Assembly: GCA_903911205.1 (NCBI GenBank) | Contig: CAIWCL010000181.1 | Location: forward strand, 1-41,600 | DNA from: an uncultured bacterium | Lineage (GTDB): Bacteria; Planctomycetota; Phycisphaerae; Phycisphaerales; SM1A02 | DNA length: 41,600 nt | Direction of reading: 5' to 3' | Shown here: piece after piece, positions 21,942-41,299 of the stretch | Layout of the letters: the number at the start of each line of letters is the position of its first letter | How positions within the stretch are numbered: position 1 is the stretch's first letter | Notes under the pieces: generated by a model | What the model was told of the DNA's origin: nothing | The model's database searches: none | The model's input: the letters and a program-made list of their open reading frames with translations, nothing else | Position numbers and translations under genes: made by a program

Positions 21942-22424
21942 TCATCCCGTTATCGAGACGCGGGCACGTATCTCGCCGCCATCGGAGGGCGATGGCGACG
22001 CGGTCGGCAATTCCTGCATGGTCGACGCCGAGCGATTTTCCTTCGCAAGTTCGCCGATGCACATGCTCCACGTCTCGCGCTCAAAGCGGAGGAGCGAGAG
22101 TGCTTCGTCGACCTTGGACGGATCGCGTCCGGAGCTTGCCTCAACAAGAAGGCGGTACAGATAGGTGTACAGCGAACTCAGGCGTTGGCAAAGTTCTGGC
22201 GCCTGATCTGGACGGAGCGCATTGATGAGCTCCATCAAAATTGCCTGCGTCTTCGTTGTCCCGTCAAAGCTGAGTTCGAAGTCGCGCGTTTCGTAGCCCC
22301 GCTTCGTTTGCTCAGCGAAGCGGATGGCGCCGTCGAGAAGCATGAGCCGGAGCTCCGCGGGGCTCGCGGTCATCACTTTCGTGCGGAGGTACGCTTGGGG
22401 TCCGGAAGAGGTTTGCATAGCCAT
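21942..22424 (-). CDS. fliS: Flagellin chaperone FliS
   Basis: A 160-aa cytoplasmic export chaperone that binds flagellin. The start ATG 22424 (MAMQTSSGPQAYLRTKVMTASPAELRLMLLDGAI) is chosen because FliS proteins begin with a YLxxxV helix; the track start at 22502 adds 26 unlikely residues. The four-helix core is visible: LMLLDGAIRFAEQTKRGYE, the KTQAILMELINALRPD helix, LCQRLSSLYTYLYRLLVEAS and a final helix LLRFERETWSMCI. The C-terminal 30 residues are low-complexity (TASPSPSDGG). It lies 106 bp downstream of fliD on the same strand. Confidence 0.9.
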   Translation of the reverse strand: MAMQTSSGPQAYLRTKVMTASPAELRLMLLDGAIRFAEQTKRGYETRDFELSFDGTTKTQAILMELINALRPDQAPELCQRLSSLYTYLYRLLVEASSGRDPSKVDEALSLLRFERETWSMCIGELAKENRSASTMQELPTASPSPSDGGEIRARVSITG

Positions 22425-22530
22425 CGGCTCTCTGATCGGCGGTTCTGATCGACAACTTTCGTCACTTGACCGAGGCGCGCGGTGATCTTGAGGTTGATCC
22501 ACAGGTCACAAGCAATGCGACGCCATTCGA

Positions 22531-25500
22531 CTATCCCATCATCGCGACGTTCGCCGACAGTGCGCCGAGCGACGACTGCTGCGTCTGCAACTTGGCGAGC
22601 GCGGACTCCATCGCGGCAAACTGCGCGACGTAGCGCGCACGCTTCGAGTCGAGCCGAGCGTCATATCGCTCAAGACGTTCCTTCAAACCATCGAGTTGTT
22701 CTTGCATGCCACGATCAGCAACCGTGGTCACGCCGTCCACCGAGTTGGTCAGCTTCTTCAGTAATTGATCGAACAGATCGCCAAAGCCGAGTTTGGAATA
22801 GGACGTCGTTGTCTGCTCGACGGTGACGCCTGCGACAGGTGAGTTCGACGATGTCGACTGAATCTCGAACGCCGTGAAGAGTTCTTCGACCGCGCCAGGA
22901 TCTATGTCATACGCAGCGCGGAACTTCGCCTCGTCAAACTGCAACTGCCCTTCTTTACCGAAGCGGATTCCAACCTGCGAGAGATAGCGGTAACGACCCT
23001 CAACACCCTTCGCTGGACCCTGCGCAGTCTGAATGATCTGCTGACGGACGCGCGCAACAACCGGGTTGCCGAGGAGTGGGCCCTTCTTCTTTGTTTCGTC
23101 GTCGTACTTGTCGTAGTCGCCGATACGTCCAAGTGCATCATTGATGGTCGTGACGAGTTGCTTGACGCCATCCACCATGCCGGTCACATTGCGTGCGACA
23201 TCGACATTGACTGTGGCTCCAGCCTTCTTCGCATCGATCTCAAGTCCCGACACAACGTCTTTGAATGAGTTCGTCGAACTTGTGTAAAGAAACGCAGTCG
23301 CAGGATCGCCTGTTCCAAGAAAGAGCGACGCATCAAGACCTTCGCTCGTACGAACCATGCCGAGATCGACGGAACCCGTGTCCATCAAGAGTTGACCACG
23401 AGATCCCCCGACCGTCGAACTCACACTGAGTCGGAAGGGCTGGGTTCCAGTACCTGCGTTCACGATCGATGCGGCAAGCGGGATCTTCGCTTCATTCAAT
23501 TTGCGAACAACATCCGCAAGCGTGTCGGTCGTTTCAAGATCAACCGTCTTCTCGAGTGAGCCCACCAAATTCGCGCCCGCAGATGCTGCTTGACCAGCGA
23601 GGCCAAGTCCTTTCGATACCGCGCCGCTCACATCTGCGACTTTGATGGCGGTGGATGGTGTTCCTGTGTTGGTATCGACGAGTTCAATCCCGTCGCCGGT
23701 CGCGTTCAAACGAGCCTCGACGAAGAGTCCGCGCGAATTGATTTCACTCAAGACGTCGTAGACTGTTGTCGCGCTGGCATCGATATCAACCACGGCACTT
23801 TCGCCGCTGGAATCGGTGATTCGAAACGTACCTGTTCCAACGCCCTTTCCAAATGCGAGCGAAGAGAGCTTTGTGCCGAGCGCAAAGTGTTGACGATCGA
23901 GATCGCCGCCGCGAACCACATCGCCCGCCACACTTGCAGAGAGGCCCAACACCGACGCGGCTGCGCCTGTGACACTCATCGTGCCGTTGCCGTCGCCAAT
24001 GTCACGAGCCATGAGGCCACGGCCGCTGTCGGACACCTCAAGGCGGACATCAACACCATTGTCCTTCGCTAACGCGTTGATCGCGTGAACGAGTCCCGCC
24101 ACCGTGTCGTGGGCTGCGAAGTCCGTAAAGTCGAAGGTGTTGCCGTTGCGATCCGTGAGCGTCAACGGTCCCGGCGATCCGATACCACTTCCTCCGTACA
24201 AGCGCGTGAGGCGCACGGTTCCCACCGCAGCTGCAATGCGCGTACTCGTGACGGAGCCCGTTCCTGACAAACCGAACAATCCGAGATCTCGAGCGGTACG
24301 TTCCCCCACCGCTGTACCGAACGATGAACCGTCTGTTGTGCCGGCGAGGACCTCAACCGTCGATCCGCCCGCGACAGAGAGTGTGAGGCTGGTTCCACTC
24401 GACGCGATCGATGCCGTGACTGCACCTGACGTCTGGTCCGCGATGCGCGCAATCACATCTTCAACTGTGGATGCACGTGGAGTCGCCACCTTGTTGCGAA
24501 CGACGCCTCCAGTAAGCGTCGTTGGACCCGTATCAATCGCGCCCGTGAAGATGCCAAGATCCTTCGCTGCGCGATCAAGATTGGGTCCTGAACCTAAGAC
24601 CTTCACGGGGCCAGAACCACCCGTGTTGTCGGTGACGACAAAGCCCTTGCCGTCGCCGCGCAGTGAAACAACGACTTGTCCCGCACCGAGATCGCTCTCA
24701 AGTTCGGAGTTGATGCGTGTGAGCATCTCCCCCACGGTCTTCACCGCTTCGTCCTGTACTTCGCCATCAACAACGACCGCGCCGAGATTGATCCCAACTG
24801 TGACGCCCGTGGATGTCACGATCTTGAAATCATCCGCATCAGTCGTATTGATCTTGACGCCAAGCCCGTTATTGAGATCGGCGAGCTTTGTTGTGTTCGT
24901 GATCGGTTGGTCTTCGCGACCGAGCGAGATGTCGTAGGTCGTTCCGTCGACTTTGATACGGAAGTCAACGACTCCGTCGCGTACGAAGACGCCTGTGCCA
25001 TCATTCAGTGAGGCCAGCGCAGTGGAGGGACCGATTTGGTTGAGCTGTGTGCCGCTGACTTGCTGAGAAACGTGTGTGCCACGAATACCAAGCTGTGCAG
25101 CGATCAATCCACTGCCAACATCTGCGATCACGAGTGCGCCAGTACCACCGGACGCATCGTTGATCACGAGTCGCTCATTCTCGATGTACGCGTCAAGCTC
25201 TGTATTGCTTGCAGCGTTGATGCGATCTATGACATCTTTCAATGTCACCGCCGTCGAGAGATCAATCGTGTCTTCGCGGCCGAGCCCATCTTTGATCGTG
25301 ATCTTGCCACGCGCGACGCCCTCGCCACCTCGAAGATCAGAAAGCGCTAGGTCGCGCTCCAAACCGGCATCACCCCACTCGAAACTCAGGTTGTCGAGTC
25401 CAAGTGGCGTCGCATCTTTCGTCGCGAATCCTCGCGAGAGAATTTGGCTTGTCGAGACGAGCCGTCCAACCGTGAATTGGTAACTTCCGGGCGGCGTGTC

Positions 25501-25770
25501 TTTTGACGCACGAGCCGCGAGCGATGTCTCATCCGCGCTTGTCGCGGTCATCGCGGTGAAGACGTTTCCAATACGAAGGTTCGACGAGGCGTTCCTCAGG
25601 TTCAACAGACGTGCGTTGACATCGAGCAGCGCGGTCTTTGCCGTCTGCAGCACGCTGTAGCGCTGTTGGATCGGGAGTTTTCCACGTGACTCCAGTGCCA
25701 ACAACTGCTCGATGATCTGCGTCGAGTTGATGCCACTGACGAGTCCAATGCCTGTCGAGATCCCAGACAT
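22531..25770 (-). CDS. fliD: Flagellar filament capping protein FliD, unusually long
   Basis: A 1079-aa hook-associated protein 2; the cap protein in enterobacteria and pseudomonads is roughly 450-670 aa. FliD_N is at about residues 8-108 (GLVSGINSTQIIEQLLALE, SVLQTAKTALLDVNARL). FliD_C is at about 835-1070, ending with a coiled helix (LKERLERYDARLDSKRARYVAQFAAMESALAKL). Between them lie about seven flagellin-hook IN-like motifs, near residues 178 (TLKDVIDRIN), 297, 347 (TVGEMLTRIN), 438 (TVEDVIARI), 557, 670 (TVYDVLSEIN) and 750 (TLADVVRKLN). Each is followed by a beta-rich segment, so the outer part of the cap is expanded. The family assignment is firm; the repeat count is by eye. Confidence 0.93.
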   Translation of the reverse strand: MSGISTGIGLVSGINSTQIIEQLLALESRGKLPIQQRYSVLQTAKTALLDVNARLLNLRNASSNLRIGNVFTAMTATSADETSLAARASKDTPPGSYQFTVGRLVSTSQILSRGFATKDATPLGLDNLSFEWGDAGLERDLALSDLRGGEGVARGKITIKDGLGREDTIDLSTAVTLKDVIDRINAASNTELDAYIENERLVINDASGGTGALVIADVGSGLIAAQLGIRGTHVSQQVSGTQLNQIGPSTALASLNDGTGVFVRDGVVDFRIKVDGTTYDISLGREDQPITNTTKLADLNNGLGVKINTTDADDFKIVTSTGVTVGINLGAVVVDGEVQDEAVKTVGEMLTRINSELESDLGAGQVVVSLRGDGKGFVVTDNTGGSGPVKVLGSGPNLDRAAKDLGIFTGAIDTGPTTLTGGVVRNKVATPRASTVEDVIARIADQTSGAVTASIASSGTSLTLSVAGGSTVEVLAGTTDGSSFGTAVGERTARDLGLFGLSGTGSVTSTRIAAAVGTVRLTRLYGGSGIGSPGPLTLTDRNGNTFDFTDFAAHDTVAGLVHAINALAKDNGVDVRLEVSDSGRGLMARDIGDGNGTMSVTGAAASVLGLSASVAGDVVRGGDLDRQHFALGTKLSSLAFGKGVGTGTFRITDSSGESAVVDIDASATTVYDVLSEINSRGLFVEARLNATGDGIELVDTNTGTPSTAIKVADVSGAVSKGLGLAGQAASAGANLVGSLEKTVDLETTDTLADVVRKLNEAKIPLAASIVNAGTGTQPFRLSVSSTVGGSRGQLLMDTGSVDLGMVRTSEGLDASLFLGTGDPATAFLYTSSTNSFKDVVSGLEIDAKKAGATVNVDVARNVTGMVDGVKQLVTTINDALGRIGDYDKYDDETKKKGPLLGNPVVARVRQQIIQTAQGPAKGVEGRYRYLSQVGIRFGKEGQLQFDEAKFRAAYDIDPGAVEELFTAFEIQSTSSNSPVAGVTVEQTTTSYSKLGFGDLFDQLLKKLTNSVDGVTTVADRGMQEQLDGLKERLERYDARLDSKRARYVAQFAAMESALAKLQTQQSSLGALSANVAMMG

Positions 25771-30558: not shown

Positions 30559-33500
30559 TCACTTCAGCGTCTTGAGGTACGCAACAACGTCGCGTATCTC
30601 GGCGTCCGAAAGAACGCCCGACATCGATGGCATCGCGCTCGCGCCAGCGTTCGCGTAACCCTCGACGATCCGCTCGTTCGGATTGATGAGTGAATGCAGG
30701 AGGTAACGCGCATCGCCGCGCGATGCAACGCCGTCCAGTGAGGGCGCCGCGTTACCGCCGCTTCCTCCGATCGCGTGGCACTTCATACAGACAGCACTCA
30801 TGTGATAGAGGACGACGTTTCGACCGCGCGCAACGTCGCCGCCGTCAAGCGTGAGCGACTCATATCGCGCGGTCGCATCGTTCCCGAGTGACGTCTTCCA
30901 GCGGTCAAGCGCCATGGCAACGGGGCCTTCAGTCCGCGCGCTGCCGGCGTCAACAATCTCAAGTCGCAGCGCAGGATCAAGCGAGCCATCGGCGAGTTGC
31001 TGCGCGATTGGCGCGAGTGCCTGGTCGGCCGCCACACCGAAGAACGCGAGATCACGAATCGCGCGCTGTCGCTCGAATGTTGAGCCGTGTTCGGCAGCGT
31101 CAGCGAGCGCAGCAAGGGCGCGCGTGTCATTCAACTCACGCAGCATGGTGCGCGCTTCCGCACGGAGTTCCGCGGCATCAGACACGAGCGCGGCATCGAC
31201 GGCACTCGCCAGCCGACCACTCTTGTCACCCGCAAGTGAACGCAGACTGGAGACGCGCTCAGAGGGCGAAAGACGCGTGTCGGACACCGCGCGTAGTGCA
31301 GCCTCTGGGTCAAGCGACACGCCATGCTTTGCAGCCACATCACGAGCGACAGACCGGAGGATCGGGTCAGGATTCTCTGCAAGCGCGGCGAGCTTGCGTG
31401 CGAGCGTTGCCTTGAACGCACTCTCATCGCGTGTTTGTGTTGCAAGAACACGGAACGCACCATTCACGCGATTGCGGGGTGCACCATCGTTCCAAGCACC
31501 GAGTGCTTCGAGTGCCTCAACGCGCATTGGAAGCGGGTTCGCGGGCGAGAGTGCAACGTCACAAAGGAGCGCGGCGGTTTCGTTCGTGCCCTCCGCGAGA
31601 CACGCTTCGATCGCACGGCGGAGATGTGGAAACTCGCTGCGATCCACAGGCGCCGCGCCAATCGGTGCTTCGATACGCCCACTCGGTAGGCGCCACATGA
31701 GGGAGCAATGGTCACCGCCTCCGCCCTCCGCGTGGAGCGCTTGAATCGCGTAGCGCTTGCCTTTCTCAAGTGAAATCGGCTTTGAGCGCTGTGCGGGCTG
31801 ACTCTCATAATCACCGGGGTTTGCATAGCCCTCAACGTGTGCGATCTCCACGAGACTTGTCGGATCGTCACTCGACCCAAGGAAGAGGATCGAATCATCG
31901 TCGCTCGCGATCGCAAACTCATACGCGCCAGTTTCAGGCGCTTCAACGACTCCACGGATCCGGGCGATGTATTGATTGCCCGCGTTCTTCGGCGCTTCGC
32001 CAACCGTGAGCGCTTTTGATTCGTCGGGCGTGCGTGTGAAGACTTCGCCCTTGCGAAGATCATCGACGGTGCCCGCACGATTGAGCTTCCAAACCTCACG
32101 CGTGAATTCGTGATTCACCCGCGGCGCATCCGCGACGGTCGTTGATGGTGGCGCTGCGAAACGTGCCGCGCTCGCCGCGAGTTGCGGACGGAGCGACGCC
32201 AGAGGGATGTCGTTGATGGCGCGTGCGGCTTCGAGTCGGATCACCCGTTCAGGATCATTGAGGAATCCCGCGATGCGTGGATCACGCAATTTGCGCATCG
32301 CGAGGCACGCGGCCATGCGAATCGATGAGGCGGGATCGGCGGAAAGTTCACCCAGGCGCGCACGGTCGTTCATCCACGCGAGTGCTTGGACGCCCGCGTG
32401 ACGAAGGAACGGATCACGATCCGCGTTCTCCGCGATCATGGAAACCACGAAGGGTGCCTTGTCGCGTGCGCCCATTCTTCCAAGCGCCATCGCCGCAAAC
32501 GCGCGAACGCGTGCATTGTCATCCGAGCAGAGTTCGGCGAGCGCGTCGGCCGAAGCAATCGCGCGTGCCTCGCCAAGCATGCGTGCGGCTTGTGCGCGAA
32601 TCTCTGCGTCGCGATCCGCGAGTACGGGCACGACAAACTCCCACGGCTGTTGATCGCGTGTGAGTGATTCCGCCTCGAGCGTGCTCGATCCGCGAAGTTT
32701 TGTCGAAGCCTGTTGACCCAGCGCCCAAATCGCATGAATTCGCGCAAAGCGATTGGAAGACGATGTGACGATATCGCCGAGCAGTGCCGTTGTTTCGCGA
32801 CCACGCACGGCGAGCGCGAACTGTGCACGTTGACGGACGCGACGATCCGCATGCGAAAGGAGCGACGCGAGTTCATCGGCATCGCGACGGGCAAAGCCAT
32901 CGCGGAAGAGTTGTGTCACTTCCGCGATGCGCGGATCCGTCAGTCGCGATGGGTCCCACACCGCGTAGAGCTCGCCTTTGTCACCAGAACCCCAGCCACC
33001 ACCCCAGTCGGTGATATACATCTTGCCGTCGTATCCGAAGTCGACGTCCGTCGGCAGGACGTTCTCAACGAACGGATGTTCATCGACCACTTTGAAACCG
33101 GCGCCAACAGGTTCCACCGCAAACGCGAGGATGCGCGAGTAGCTATCACCACCGAGAAAGTCGCAGAGGAAGAAGTGGTCGTTGTAGCGCTCGGGTAATC
33201 CAAGCCCGGGATAGAAAACAAGCCCTGACGGACCAGCGCCCACGTGATCGAGCGGCGGAAGCGTCCATGCTGGTTGCAATGGATTCGCTTCCTTCACCTT
33301 CACATCCTCGAACCGATGCGGCGCGAGATCGGGCCGGAGATGCCAAATCCCTTCTTGATTCCATGGACCACGCTGATTCGCGCCCTCGAGCGTTTGGTAG
33401 TCCATCGACCAACCGGTTTCGCCACCTTCCATGCAGTAGACAAAGCGCGCCTTATCACCGCCGTCCGAGTTGTTGTCGCCGGTAAAGAGATTGCCGTAGT

Positions 33501-34410
33501 TGTCGAACGCGAGCTCTTGCGGATTGCGCAGTCCCGTGCAGTACAGCTCGAGCTCGCTGCCATCTGGATTCATTCGAAAGACCGCGCCTGAGCGCGGATC
33601 ATGCATCAGGATGCCGTCCGACGTGCGCACGTCGTAGCCGCGGTCGCCGATGGACCAGTAGATCTTGCCGTCGTAGCCGAGGACGAGACCGTGCATGTCG
33701 TGACCGCGCAACGCAACACGAACGCCGTAGCCAGAGGAATCCTTCGCGACGAATTCAGCGACGCCGTCGCCGTCCTTATCGATCAATCGCCAAAGATGCG
33801 GAATGTTGGTGTAGAAGATGTCGCCATCGAGCGCGAGCAGTCCTGCGCCTGTGCCATCCAACGGATCGTTGAATGGGCCTGCGAAAACGGTTCGGGTTTC
33901 AGGCGTACCGTCGCGGTTCGCGTCTGCGAGTTTGGCGACGCGGTCCGCGTACTTTGAGTAGTACGCCATACCACCCTCGCGCTTCGACGCCCACTTCTCA
34001 TACATCTTGAGGCGGTCCGCGACCGTCTCACACGCGAGGTCATCGAGCAACCAATATGAGCTGTGTCGATTGTCTTCGACGCCGAGGTCTTGTCGATCGC
34101 TCTCTGCAAAATAGAAGTCGCCGCGTTCGTCGATGCAGAACGCGACAGGATCGTCGAGCAAGGGATACAGCGCGATCGTGGACTTCGCGAGCCCAGCCAC
34201 AGGTTTGATCTTGCACGCAGCGTCGTCGGTCTTCGGTGCGACAGTGCCTGAGTTGGTGCCCGAGTTGGTGCCCGAGTTCGTACTCGAGCTCGCGGCGGAA
34301 CCATCGCCGTGTTGGGAAGGCGGCACCGTCGCTGCTGTTGCAGTGCCCAGGGAAGACGCAATGACCGAAATCGGCAGGGTCACGATGAACGACGCAAGCG
34401 GAGCGTGCAT
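30559..34410 (-). CDS. PVC-type membrane-bound dehydrogenase: propeller, HEAT, PA14 and heme-binding cytochrome c
   Basis: A 1283-aa exported protein of a family abundant in Planctomycetota and Verrucomicrobiota. Signal peptide at residues 1-27 (SFIVTLPISVIASSLG). A Ser/Asn/Gly/Thr linker with TNSG repeats is at about 45-56. A beta-propeller of the NHL/sugar-dehydrogenase type spans about 70-490 (GLRNPQELAFDNYGNLFTGDNN, CDFLGGDSYSRI, DVDFGYDGKMYITDWGGGW). HEAT repeats cover about 510-740. A PA14 domain follows at about 763-920 (TGAYEFAIASDDDSILFLG, HCSLMWRLP), then further HEAT repeats. The C-terminal cytochrome c domain carries CMKCH near residue 1207 and the MPSM segment for a distal ligand. 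The substrate is probably a sugar or sulfated polysaccharide breakdown product; this is inferred from the family. Confidence 0.92.
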   Translation of the reverse strand: MHAPLASFIVTLPISVIASSLGTATAATVPPSQHGDGSAASSSTNSGTNSGTNSGTVAPKTDDAACKIKPVAGLAKSTIALYPLLDDPVAFCIDERGDFYFAESDRQDLGVEDNRHSSYWLLDDLACETVADRLKMYEKWASKREGGMAYYSKYADRVAKLADANRDGTPETRTVFAGPFNDPLDGTGAGLLALDGDIFYTNIPHLWRLIDKDGDGVAEFVAKDSSGYGVRVALRGHDMHGLVLGYDGKIYWSIGDRGYDVRTSDGILMHDPRSGAVFRMNPDGSELELYCTGLRNPQELAFDNYGNLFTGDNNSDGGDKARFVYCMEGGETGWSMDYQTLEGANQRGPWNQEGIWHLRPDLAPHRFEDVKVKEANPLQPAWTLPPLDHVGAGPSGLVFYPGLGLPERYNDHFFLCDFLGGDSYSRILAFAVEPVGAGFKVVDEHPFVENVLPTDVDFGYDGKMYITDWGGGWGSGDKGELYAVWDPSRLTDPRIAEVTQLFRDGFARRDADELASLLSHADRRVRQRAQFALAVRGRETTALLGDIVTSSSNRFARIHAIWALGQQASTKLRGSSTLEAESLTRDQQPWEFVVPVLADRDAEIRAQAARMLGEARAIASADALAELCSDDNARVRAFAAMALGRMGARDKAPFVVSMIAENADRDPFLRHAGVQALAWMNDRARLGELSADPASSIRMAACLAMRKLRDPRIAGFLNDPERVIRLEAARAINDIPLASLRPQLAASAARFAAPPSTTVADAPRVNHEFTREVWKLNRAGTVDDLRKGEVFTRTPDESKALTVGEAPKNAGNQYIARIRGVVEAPETGAYEFAIASDDDSILFLGSSDDPTSLVEIAHVEGYANPGDYESQPAQRSKPISLEKGKRYAIQALHAEGGGGDHCSLMWRLPSGRIEAPIGAAPVDRSEFPHLRRAIEACLAEGTNETAALLCDVALSPANPLPMRVEALEALGAWNDGAPRNRVNGAFRVLATQTRDESAFKATLARKLAALAENPDPILRSVARDVAAKHGVSLDPEAALRAVSDTRLSPSERVSSLRSLAGDKSGRLASAVDAALVSDAAELRAEARTMLRELNDTRALAALADAAEHGSTFERQRAIRDLAFFGVAADQALAPIAQQLADGSLDPALRLEIVDAGSARTEGPVAMALDRWKTSLGNDATARYESLTLDGGDVARGRNVVLYHMSAVCMKCHAIGGSGGNAAPSLDGVASRGDARYLLHSLINPNERIVEGYANAGASAMPSMSGVLSDAEIRDVVAYLKTLK
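34244..34291. repeat. 12-bp repeats encoding TNSG in the linker
   Basis: GTGCCTGAGTTG, GTGCCCGAGTTG, GTGCCCGAGTTC and a diverged GTACTCGAGCTC, back to back. On the minus strand they give (G)TNSGTNSGTNSG in the exported cytochrome's linker. Confidence 0.85.
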
Positions 34411-36752: not shown

Positions 36753-37326
36753 AAGGCAGGCCGTAAGGGACGCACTTGAACCTCGACCACCCGCAAGAAG
36801 AGCCTTCGAAGCGTCGTCAAAATAACTTTCGTCAGGACGACGCGTGAACGACCCAAGCCACGCTTGCTTTCTGACAAACGACTCCTACCATCGCGCCCGC
36901 TGCGAAGGGAGTCGTAGCGCCTTTCAGACTTCAGCCGTGATTCCAACACGTCGGCTCTTCGAGTGCCTTCAGGGGTGTCTCGAAGATCAACGCGAGGACA
37001 CGAACTGACGCCGAGAAAGACGGCTGCAACAACCGACGTACGCACTCGGACAGACACGGAAGTTCTTCAGACACCTCAGTCGAGGCATTGGTGGAAACGA
37101 TGGTCGCGCCATGCGCGGTAGTTCGACGTGTCGTCCTTGGACGCACCAATCGATCTATCACATCGTGCGATGCAACGTCATCGATGAAAAACCTGCGACG
37201 AAAACTGGGGATGAGACCGCTTGGGAAGAAACGCTCTTCGACGCGAGGTCGCGTCGATATGGCGGACTGATCTGATTGCGTGCGAGAGATACGACGAGAT
37301 TTCGAACTCACACAAGGAGGCAGAGC
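36753..37326. other. Intergenic region before the RuvB-like gene, 574 bp
   Basis: No gene is supported. An 8-bp stem ACGACTCC...GGAGTCGT with a 22-nt loop lies at 36878-36915. The long minus-strand track ORF 36931-37914 overlaps the RuvB-like gene antisense and has no recognisable content. The promoter of the gene at 37327 should lie in the last 100-200 bp. AAGGAGG at 37314-37320 is its Shine-Dalgarno. Confidence 0.55.
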
Positions 37327-38853
37327 ATGGTTGACTGCGTGCATGGTGGAAATGATGGGGAAGAGTTGAAGGATGTGCGCGTGACCGAGGAAAATCCGTG
37401 TGGTCGGACAGTCGAGAGTCCTGCGGCACCAACCGAAGATTGTGTGCGTGAGAGCACCACGACCGTCGATCATGGAAAGGACGCCGTGAATCCGACGCAG
37501 ATGATCGTCACCAAAGTTGTTGAATGTCGAGAGGAGCCACTGGTGGCATGTGCAAGCACTGATGAGTTGCTGCACGACACGACACACGTTCAAAGTGATC
37601 GCGATTCCGACGCAACGTCGCAATCTCTCACCGCCGTTCAATCGACCGACGCATGTAGTACCAGCGGAGAGCCCGCTGCCAGTTCCCCGCAGACGAAGCA
37701 ACCCGATCAAGCGGTCAACGGAGAGTCCACGCTCCCAGAGGACCAATCGGAAACAACGCGCGATGTATCGCCTCCGAACGGTCGTCCAAAAAAGCGGCCA
37801 ATGCTCCATATAGCATCGGAATTGGAACGCGTCGACGGCGAGTTCAACATCTCCCGACCACGACGCACAACGACTCCACGCGGTGAGATCTTCAGCATCC
37901 CGACGCTCTTCCACTTCGCGAGCTCAGTCGGTGTCACACGTGTACTTGAGCGGCTTGTCGAAAACGCGCTCGCGAACAATCGGCCACTCGATCACATTCT
38001 GCTCCATGGTCCTCCAGGATCGGGAACAACCCTCGTCGCACGCGCGATTGTCCGCGACCTCGCACCGAAAAACTTCGTTGAACTCGATCTTCTCGACGGC
38101 GTCGACCAAGACACGCTCCGCCGCGCTCTTCGTGAAGTTCGCAACCAGGGTGTGCTGCTCATCCGCCACATCGAACTTCTAAGTGGGGCGAACGAGCAGT
38201 TTCTGATGTCCTGTATTGCGCGAAAGACTGTTCGTGGGACTGGGTCGTTCGCGCGCGAGACGCCTCCAAGCACGGAAGGTGTGGCCAAGCAGAAACGACC
38301 GATGGATGAGTACGTCGCAGACGCTGTTCGCCGACCACCTCTACGCATCGATGGCAACTTCACACTGATCGGAACAGCCCATCTCACACAGCAGATCGGC
38401 TACCAGTTACGCGGTCGTTTCGATCACATGATTCACCTGCGCAGCGATCCGGTCGGTATCCGTATCGCGATGCGCCACGCCCTCTCGCGCTTCGGACTCA
38501 CTCTTGATGAGAGCGCACATCGACCCATCGAGCGATTTGTCCGGACCATCGACGACATTGCGGAGCAGTTTGTTCAGGCGATCGTGATGCGAGCCCAACT
38601 CGAGGAGACGTGTCATCTCAATGACACGATCATTCAGACCGTCGTGACGGACGATATGCCCGGCCGCATTGCCGACGAGATCTACGCATGGGCGCTTGTT
38701 CGGCATCTCGCCGGACGGCGGGTGACCTCTGTGACCGACAATGAGGTCGAGCGACTCGAGAGCGAGACTGGCTGGGGCGAAATCGCTGTCCGCGCTGCGC
38801 TTGGTTTGGTTGTGCGAAACCAAGCGACGCGCGCAATTCCACCTGCGGCATAA
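37327..38853 (+). CDS. RuvB-like AAA protein with degenerate ATPase motifs
   Basis: A 508-aa protein. ATG 37327 is preceded by AAGGAGG at 6 nt. Residues 1-165 are Thr/Ser/Glu/Gln-rich and probably disordered. From about residue 190 the order of RuvB segments is clear: a helix before the nucleotide site (LDHILLHGPPGSGTT), ELDLLDGVDQDTLRRAL, GVLLIRHIELL, FTLIGTAHLTQ and YQLRGRFDH. RuvB normally has GPPGLGKTT, a DE pair in Walker B, and RDRFG. Here the Walker A lysine is Thr234 and the Walker B acids are Arg280-His281, while the arginine-finger-like GRF is kept. The family assignment by eye is probable; loss of ATPase activity is inferred. Confidence 0.8.
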   Translation: MVDCVHGGNDGEELKDVRVTEENPCGRTVESPAAPTEDCVRESTTTVDHGKDAVNPTQMIVTKVVECREEPLVACASTDELLHDTTHVQSDRDSDATSQSLTAVQSTDACSTSGEPAASSPQTKQPDQAVNGESTLPEDQSETTRDVSPPNGRPKKRPMLHIASELERVDGEFNISRPRRTTTPRGEIFSIPTLFHFASSVGVTRVLERLVENALANNRPLDHILLHGPPGSGTTLVARAIVRDLAPKNFVELDLLDGVDQDTLRRALREVRNQGVLLIRHIELLSGANEQFLMSCIARKTVRGTGSFARETPPSTEGVAKQKRPMDEYVADAVRRPPLRIDGNFTLIGTAHLTQQIGYQLRGRFDHMIHLRSDPVGIRIAMRHALSRFGLTLDESAHRPIERFVRTIDDIAEQFVQAIVMRAQLEETCHLNDTIIQTVVTDDMPGRIADEIYAWALVRHLAGRRVTSVTDNEVERLESETGWGEIAVRAALGLVVRNQATRAIPPAA

Positions 38854-39204: not shown

Positions 39205-39657
39205 TCAATCACGCATGTTCGCAAGAACCTCTGCACGAAGTGCACGTCGTGCAAACTCCCGTTCAAGGATACATCGCGAGACCCAGAGAGCCTCGCCCGG
39301 TGCAACTTCGCACCACGCGTCGACCAGTTGATCGCGCTCATCGTCGCTCAACGTTGCGAACAGTGCATCGGTCCACTTTCCCCACCCAAATCGCCGAGCG
39401 ACCGCACGTCGGACTTTCGCATCACGAACGCACTGATCCCGGGTGAGGGATCGCAAGCACTGACGCGCCTCACACTCGCTCGTGAAAACGGAGACGTCCA
39501 CACCAAAGGCATGGCTGTACAGCGCGACGAAGACCTCTGGAAGACCTCGCTTCCATCCGTCCTGCTCCCACTGAACCACTGATCGCCCGATCGCGTCTGC
39601 GTATCCGCGATAGATCTCCGTCGCCAGCTCCCGCTCTTCTCGTGTGAACGCCACCAT
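39205..39657 (-). CDS. Hypothetical protein, 150 aa
   Basis: Not recognised. ATG 39657 (GGGGGA upstream) is preferred over the track start 39735. The protein begins MVAFTREERELATEIYRGYADAIG, is mostly helical and charged, with two Cys-containing helices (SECEARQCLRSLTRDQCV). No signal peptide or membrane segment. A plus-strand ORF overlaps antisense, but its composition is less protein-like. Confidence 0.6.
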   Translation of the reverse strand: MVAFTREERELATEIYRGYADAIGRSVVQWEQDGWKRGLPEVFVALYSHAFGVDVSVFTSECEARQCLRSLTRDQCVRDAKVRRAVARRFGWGKWTDALFATLSDDERDQLVDAWCEVAPGEALWVSRCILEREFARRALRAEVLANMRD

Positions 39658-39828
39658 CTGTTCCCCCGTGTCAGCTTTGACGTTTTCGTATCTCACTCCC
39701 GAGATACGACGCGGTGTTTCACCCGTGGAAACCACCTCGCACGAAAGTACATGAGTTCACTGTGGCAAATTCAAACCATGGCAGTTTTTTCATCGCGAAA
39801 GATTCGCGCAAGATTCTTTGTGCGATTT

Positions 39829-40594: not shown

Positions 40595-41299
40595 TCACGA
40601 CGACCCGAGGAGATCCTGCATGAATGCCAGTTCGCCATCGATCTCGTCGGGTCGAATGCCGTCACGTTCAAGAATCGAAACAAGTGTCGCACGCAGTCGA
40701 TCGACCACCTGTCGATGCACGCTTGATGCGCTCGTCGCGGCCACGCCCACAATCGGCGCGGCTTGCGCGTAACCCATGCCGTGCAGCGTGTGCAGACGGA
40801 AGAGTTCCCACCACGCGCCACGACCCTCGGCCTGCAACTCAGTGCGCACGCGCTCGTGCGCCTCGGTCACCGTGCGAACCGCCCACGCGCGTTCGAGCGC
40901 GAGCAGCGCATTCGTCTCGTGGTCGACCCGCTGCGCATGAGATTCGTCGAGTTCTCTCGGATCAATCGAGCCACCATGCTCCGCGCGACGTCGCGCTGCG
41001 AGGAGCGTGTTGCGTGCGTGCATCACGAGACCATTCGCAAGCCAACGACGCAGTGGCACACTACTTGACGTCCAACGCGCGAGATACGCGTCGTCCACGA
41101 AGCGTGCGGCGAAGAACGCGTTCACGAGTTCAGGGGGCTCGCCGAGAGCGCGAAGGTTCGCCGATGCGCGTGCGTACGCGCAGAGCGGTTCAAAGTAGCG
41201 CTCGAGCACATGCGCGCGTGCCTCTGCGGGTTCATGCGCGATGCGATCGATGAGCCACGTCGCATGGGTGGTTGGGAACGTTGAGGGCGACGTCGTCAT
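40595..41299 (-). CDS. ECF-like sigma factor
   Basis: A 234-aa protein. Region 2-like helices are near residues 30-85 (VLERYFEPLCAYARASANL, VNAFFAARFVDDAYLARW), and the C-terminal part ends in a helix-turn-helix (LHTLHGMGYAQAAPIVGVAATSASSVHRQVVDRLRATLV). This layout, with a weak region 2 and a longer linker, is common in planctomycete ECF groups. It lies 109 bp upstream of the zinc-ribbon gene on the same strand; no anti-sigma gene is beside it. Confidence 0.75.
   Translation of the reverse strand: MTTSPSTFPTTHATWLIDRIAHEPAEARAHVLERYFEPLCAYARASANLRALGEPPELVNAFFAARFVDDAYLARWTSSSVPLRRWLANGLVMHARNTLLAARRRAEHGGSIDPRELDESHAQRVDHETNALLALERAWAVRTVTEAHERVRTELQAEGRGAWWELFRLHTLHGMGYAQAAPIVGVAATSASSVHRQVVDRLRATLVSILERDGIRPDEIDGELAFMQDLLGSS

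Follow-up and report, generated by a model that had tools for sequence, protein, structure and literature searches.

A probable RuvB-derived pseudo-ATPase and its divergent cousins within one family of Planctomycetota

Background

To our knowledge, RuvB is generally regarded as a single, near-universal bacterial motor. Elsewhere among AAA+ proteins, the clamp-loader subunits delta-prime and delta (HolB and HolA) retain the fold structurally, without ATPase chemistry. Structural work on T. thermophilus RuvB showed that Arg101 and Arg147 contact DNA, as does an arginine located in the wing (PMC10272136).

The window analyzed here, i.e., the whole 41,600-nucleotide stretch of a Planctomycetota contig, contains at 37327..38853 (+) a gene for a 508-aa protein. 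The succession of its domains, an AAA+ large domain, a lid and a C-terminal helical domain, is that of RuvB, and its GPPGSG, FTLIGTA and LRGRFD segments are in register. Unlike RuvB, the protein and its close relatives (the window family, 12 proteins) have the Walker A Lys, the Walker B Asp-Glu, sensor 1 and sensor 2 replaced; they lack the RuvA hairpin, the DNA-contact arginines and the wing, and they have gained an N-terminal extension. We propose, with a probability of about 0.6, that the gene encodes a lineage-specific RuvB paralog that has lost the ATPase cycle, kept the AAA+ body and acts as a nucleotide-independent adaptor.

The gene, its orthologs and its neighborhood

The reading frame consists of 508 uninterrupted codons starting with ATG, and a Shine-Dalgarno sequence, AAGGAGG (37314..37320, +), lies six bases 5′ of the start codon; the same context recurs in two orthologs (L002 and L003). 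A minus-strand ORF at 36931-37914 overlaps the N-terminal half of the gene and is probably a chance occurrence. Residues 1-182 (37327..37872, +) form an acidic, fast-evolving extension of disordered composition, with 76% disorder-promoting residues and a net charge of -16. Extensions of the same composition, 46-216 aa long, are present in all window-family members. The preliminary description had recognized the disordered character of this region and had put its length at about 165 residues, which we revise to about 182.

Among the 61 genomes searched, 11 of the 15 congeneric ones gave a strong match (E < 1e-40), the four others being G013, G010, G003 and G008. In G013, which is 96% complete, the YceI gene and the gene for a convergent 176-aa protein adjoin with nothing between them; the presence of these flanking genes without the gene itself indicates that it is dispensable there. 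In G010, the contig stops 410 bases past YceI. The matching records are metagenome-assembled genomes, several of them from lakes and ponds, mostly labeled Planctomycetota or one of its subgroups (two are labeled otherwise or unlabeled).

The eleven ortholog contigs largely share the arrangement of genes surrounding the locus. The neighbors comprise YceI, a cytochrome-type protein, uncharacterized genes and an ECF-sigma-like gene, and despite their shared order they provide no functional link from which a function could be read. The convergent 176-aa protein (39205-39735, -) has relatives in most congeners and belongs to no Pfam family. The ECF-sigma-like gene (40595-41299, -) has no Pfam match and is part of a multicopy family; four congeners each encode 7-11 relatives. 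Also conserved beside the locus (30559-34410, -) is a 1283-aa protein in which DUF7133, HEAT repeats, PA14 and cytochrome c domains occur together. Farther away in the window (21942-25770, -), fliS adjoins the gene for a 1079-aa FliD, in which a long stretch separates the N- and C-terminal domains.

Compared with the L002 ortholog, pN/pS is 0.22 for the core and 0.69 for the N-terminal extension, with synonymous sites near saturation, while the true RuvB of the same genome pair gives 0.07. Because of this near saturation, the closer pair L002/L003, with 3 nonsynonymous and 16 synonymous changes, gives the cleaner, though smaller, value (core pN/pS 0.065). Judged from these coding sequences, the window-family core is under purifying selection. 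At the same time, the family evolves much more quickly than RuvB: relative to the window genome, identity ranges from 33 to 75% for the window-family protein and from 79 to 95% for RuvB, and in most genomes it is 33-42% vs about 80%.

The loss of catalytic residues, the fast divergence and the absence of the gene in G013 are what would be expected of a decaying ruvB duplicate. We consider this explanation highly improbable, since the frame is intact, orthologs in 11 of 15 congeners carry the same replacements and the core is under purifying selection. The earlier opinion that the gene is not a pseudogene thus agrees with our results.

Relation to RuvB and to other known systems

All 12 window-family proteins match RuvB profiles. 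Among named families, the 508-aa protein matches RuvB best (TIGR00635, E 2.4e-9), with a score of 36.7 bits that does not reach the RuvB equivalog threshold (NCBIfam cut-off 299). The matches to Pfam RuvB_N (PF05496, E 7.7e-8, 32.7 bits) and Pfam AAA (PF00004, E 8.9e-10, 39.6 bits) are above their cut-offs of 27 and 21.2, respectively. Since RuvB_N passes its cut-off, domain-based annotation would mislabel the window family as Holliday-junction helicases. RuvB is also the best PDB match by sequence, and an HH alignment of the window family with RuvB of the same order gave E 5e-13 over 250 columns.

An AF2 model built on the 12 sequences (pLDDT 78.7, pTM 0.75) was compared with the PDB using Foldseek. 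The top 35 matches were all RuvB (best E 3.8e-14, 284-335 alignment columns), in agreement with the relationship initially proposed for this protein, and the three-domain RuvB fold is present, its third domain without the wing. Whole-chain TM-scores to RuvB structures are moderate (0.45-0.55), which means that the domains match RuvB better than their arrangement does. The next-best structural matches were RFC-type clamp-loader ATPases, with weaker E-values and larger deviations.

A normal ruvB elsewhere in the genome, whose search had been recommended, was found at C101, with ruvA at C255, both away from the pseudo-ATPase gene; a ruvC-like match, likewise elsewhere, at C102 (E 7.7e-28) falls just below its curated cut-off. 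The presence of ruvA, ruvB and the ruvC-like match rules out that the protein is a stand-in for a missing ruvB. Canonical RuvB is present in 11 of the 12 genomes carrying a window-family protein, and it was not found in the exception, G005, which is 88% complete.

The likeness to clamp-loader delta-prime and delta would be one of working only, by analogy, with an AAA+ fold serving as a structural part. HH similarity to HolB of the same order is restricted to 40 columns around the P-loop, with a probability of 21%, and a missing clamp-loader subunit was ruled out by separate holA and holB matches in the same genome. As an anti-phage gene, the candidate was rejected because the PADLOC hits are at P-loop level only (IetA, E 0.003). 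A phage origin was likewise rejected, as 0 of 10 pattern matches in viral contigs encode relatives.

The nucleotide site

Residues were mapped through a profile alignment of the window family to 28 RuvB sequences from the same order. Pairwise core identity within the family is 32-99% (median 41%), and 31 of 305 gap-free core columns are invariant among the 12 proteins. The P-loop, GPPGSGTT (residues 228-235; 38008..38031, +), reads GTT where RuvB has GKT. Its glycines 228, 231 and 233 are invariant, and the Walker A Lys, Thr234 in the 508-aa protein, is replaced by Thr or Ser in 12/12. The former Walker B Asp-Glu pair is Arg280-His281 (38164..38169, +), invariant throughout the family. These two assignments coincide exactly with those made from the sequence in the preliminary description, which missed two further losses. 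The former sensor 1 Thr is His352 (38380..38382, +), with His or Leu across the family, and the former sensor 2 Arg is Asp410 (38554..38556, +), an invariant Asp. Hence, relative to RuvB, charge is reversed at both the Walker B Asp (Arg280) and the sensor 2 Arg (Asp410). The arginine-finger position is Arg364 (38416..38418, +); Arg is found there in eight of the proteins and Q, A, K or N in the others.

The window-family ATPase is judged dead because AAA+ chemistry is established and the losses are invariant. Lys, Asp-Glu and the sensor 2 Arg are replaced in all 12 proteins and GKT with DE is kept in none, so this is not one decaying copy, and the earlier proposal of a pseudo-ATPase appears, on sequence grounds, well supported.

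Weak nucleotide binding is possible, since the P-loop retains its glycines and has Thr or Ser in place of the Lys. An alternative reading is a cryptic nucleotide switch, in which ATP or another phosphate ligand would sit on the glycine-rich loop, with residue 283 partly replacing the Walker B Asp. Consistent with it, residue 283, three positions past the old Walker B Asp, is Glu or Asp in 12/12, as invariably retained as the three glycines and Thr/Ser234; the divergent cousins described below have an acidic residue at the equivalent position wherever it was read, and many keep the P-loop GK. Nevertheless, both sensors are replaced as well, and with the Mg-coordinating Asp changed to Arg, binding of Mg-ATP is difficult to envisage; we therefore regard such a switch as improbable.

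Counterparts of the RuvA- and DNA-binding surfaces of RuvB

The RuvA-binding beta-hairpin that precedes sensor 1 in RuvB is unaligned in the profile alignment. Its place is taken by an insert (residues 300-339; 38224..38343, +) that is modeled without strands and with pLDDT <50 (core 118-157), and which is presumably disordered according to the model. A stretch resembling LDREIAESAR lies within the insert in most family members. Residues 450-503 (38674..38835, +) correspond to a three-helix winged-helix remnant, with AF2 helices at core 268-279, 289-299 and 303-321; wing strands are absent from the modeled C-terminal domain, and the RuvB profile alignment extends as far as the first of the three helices. 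The positions taken here as counterparts of Arg101 and Arg147 in T. thermophilus RuvB, based on motif position and a constant one-residue offset vs the chain numbering, are each non-Arg in 11/12 family members.

These observations bear on two roles suggested in the preliminary description, joining a RuvB ring and binding DNA without hydrolysis. In the first case, the protein would enter the RuvB hexamer of the cell as a non-hydrolyzing subunit or inhibitor and modulate branch migration, as could be suspected from its RuvB-like AAA core and lid, the co-occurrence with canonical RuvB in 11/12 genomes and the arginine finger kept in 8/12. We consider this role unlikely: the finger is lost in 4/12, the RuvA-binding hairpin is replaced and the wing absent, the DNA-contact arginines are substituted in 11/12, the gene does not adjoin ruvB, and a divergence far faster than that of RuvB argues against a tight fit. 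In the second case, the C-terminal three-helix segment, which corresponds to the RuvB winged-helix domain, would make the protein a DNA-binding regulator. With the wing absent, both other contact arginines lost and an acidic N-terminal tail, DNA binding in the RuvB manner finds little room, and a regulator of this kind seems quite improbable.

Divergent cousins in the same taxonomic family

Although the 12 related proteins are in line with the proposal of an undescribed protein family, that proposal had missed that they belong to a larger group of divergent paralogs within the bacterial family. Our profile searches detected cousins: of the 45 genera in this taxonomic family, 5 gave matches, and among 397 sampled genomes of the class none outside the family did. 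With the threshold at E <= 1e-24, matches are confined to 5 of the 275 genera sampled in the class, all inside this one family. The cousins lie in genera g2, g18, g41 and g60, and some g60 genomes encode at least three. Two cousin proteins, L172 (G032, g18) and L173 (G199, g60, on a 3.2-kb contig), are nearly identical, which reflects either misbinning or recent transfer, so that G199 may encode one paralog fewer than counted.

The P-loops of the cousins vary (GKQ, SKR, GKR, GRT), with GK kept in many. The Walker B Asp-Glu pair is missing in every cousin read there, with segments such as RRVE, RNID, HNID, SGID, SQID, THLE, GNLE and DGLE. One cousin, L175, keeps the Asp alone, and every cousin read over the region has an acidic residue three positions past the Walker B Asp. 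Since the lid alignment of the cousins is uncertain by one position in either direction, we draw nothing from covariation of sensor 2 with Walker B among the cousin groups. By eye, five cousins from g60 and g18 (L171, L172, L173, L174 and L178) have a long C-terminal hydrophobic stretch that resembles a membrane helix.

HH comparisons of cousin groups B, C, E and F with the window family gave E-values of 6e-13 to 7e-19, and groups C and F on their own reach RuvB weakly. In the one cousin that was modeled, from an alignment that included window-family rows, RuvB was again the best match, with the same fold. A tree separates the clan from the RuvB of the order with full support, by a branch of 6.3 changes per site; it drew long-branch warnings, and neither origin nor internal order is claimed from it. 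The cousins and the window family likely share one origin.

Two other loci were observed during these searches. A CARF and PD-(D/E)XK nuclease-like gene (L042:3913-5310, -; PADLOC CARF_PDDEXK, 2.3e-13) shares a 5.3-kb contig of G016 with a RuvB-like cousin. In G111, a 721-aa frame (L183:482-2644, -; contig C122) encodes an HNH-like nuclease segment together with a RuvB-like AAA+ region in which GKT and DEVH are intact, a possible HNH-RuvB fusion.

Proposed role and significance

In the reading that we favor, that of a lineage-specific RuvB paralog turned into a probable nucleotide-independent adaptor, the former nucleotide pocket would be held without ATP by new contacts. As read from the alignment, the charge swap between Arg280 and Asp410 would permit a salt bridge from the large domain to the lid. 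Partners could be bound through the acidic N-terminal tail and the insert; the claim of one specific partner is weakened by the poor sequence conservation of both.

More tentatively, and at less than even odds, a clan of RuvB-derived pseudo-ATPases may have diversified inside one Planctomycetota family, with an Arg280-Asp410 lid lock in the genus of the window, some cousins anchored in the membrane, and the proteins serving as adaptors unrelated to recombination. Searches of the open full text, several of them with narrow phrases, returned no description of RuvB-derived pseudo-ATPases, which is weak evidence that the family is undescribed. A conserved dead RuvB together with its divergent paralogs would provide a natural case of an AAA+ motor turned into a non-motor part.
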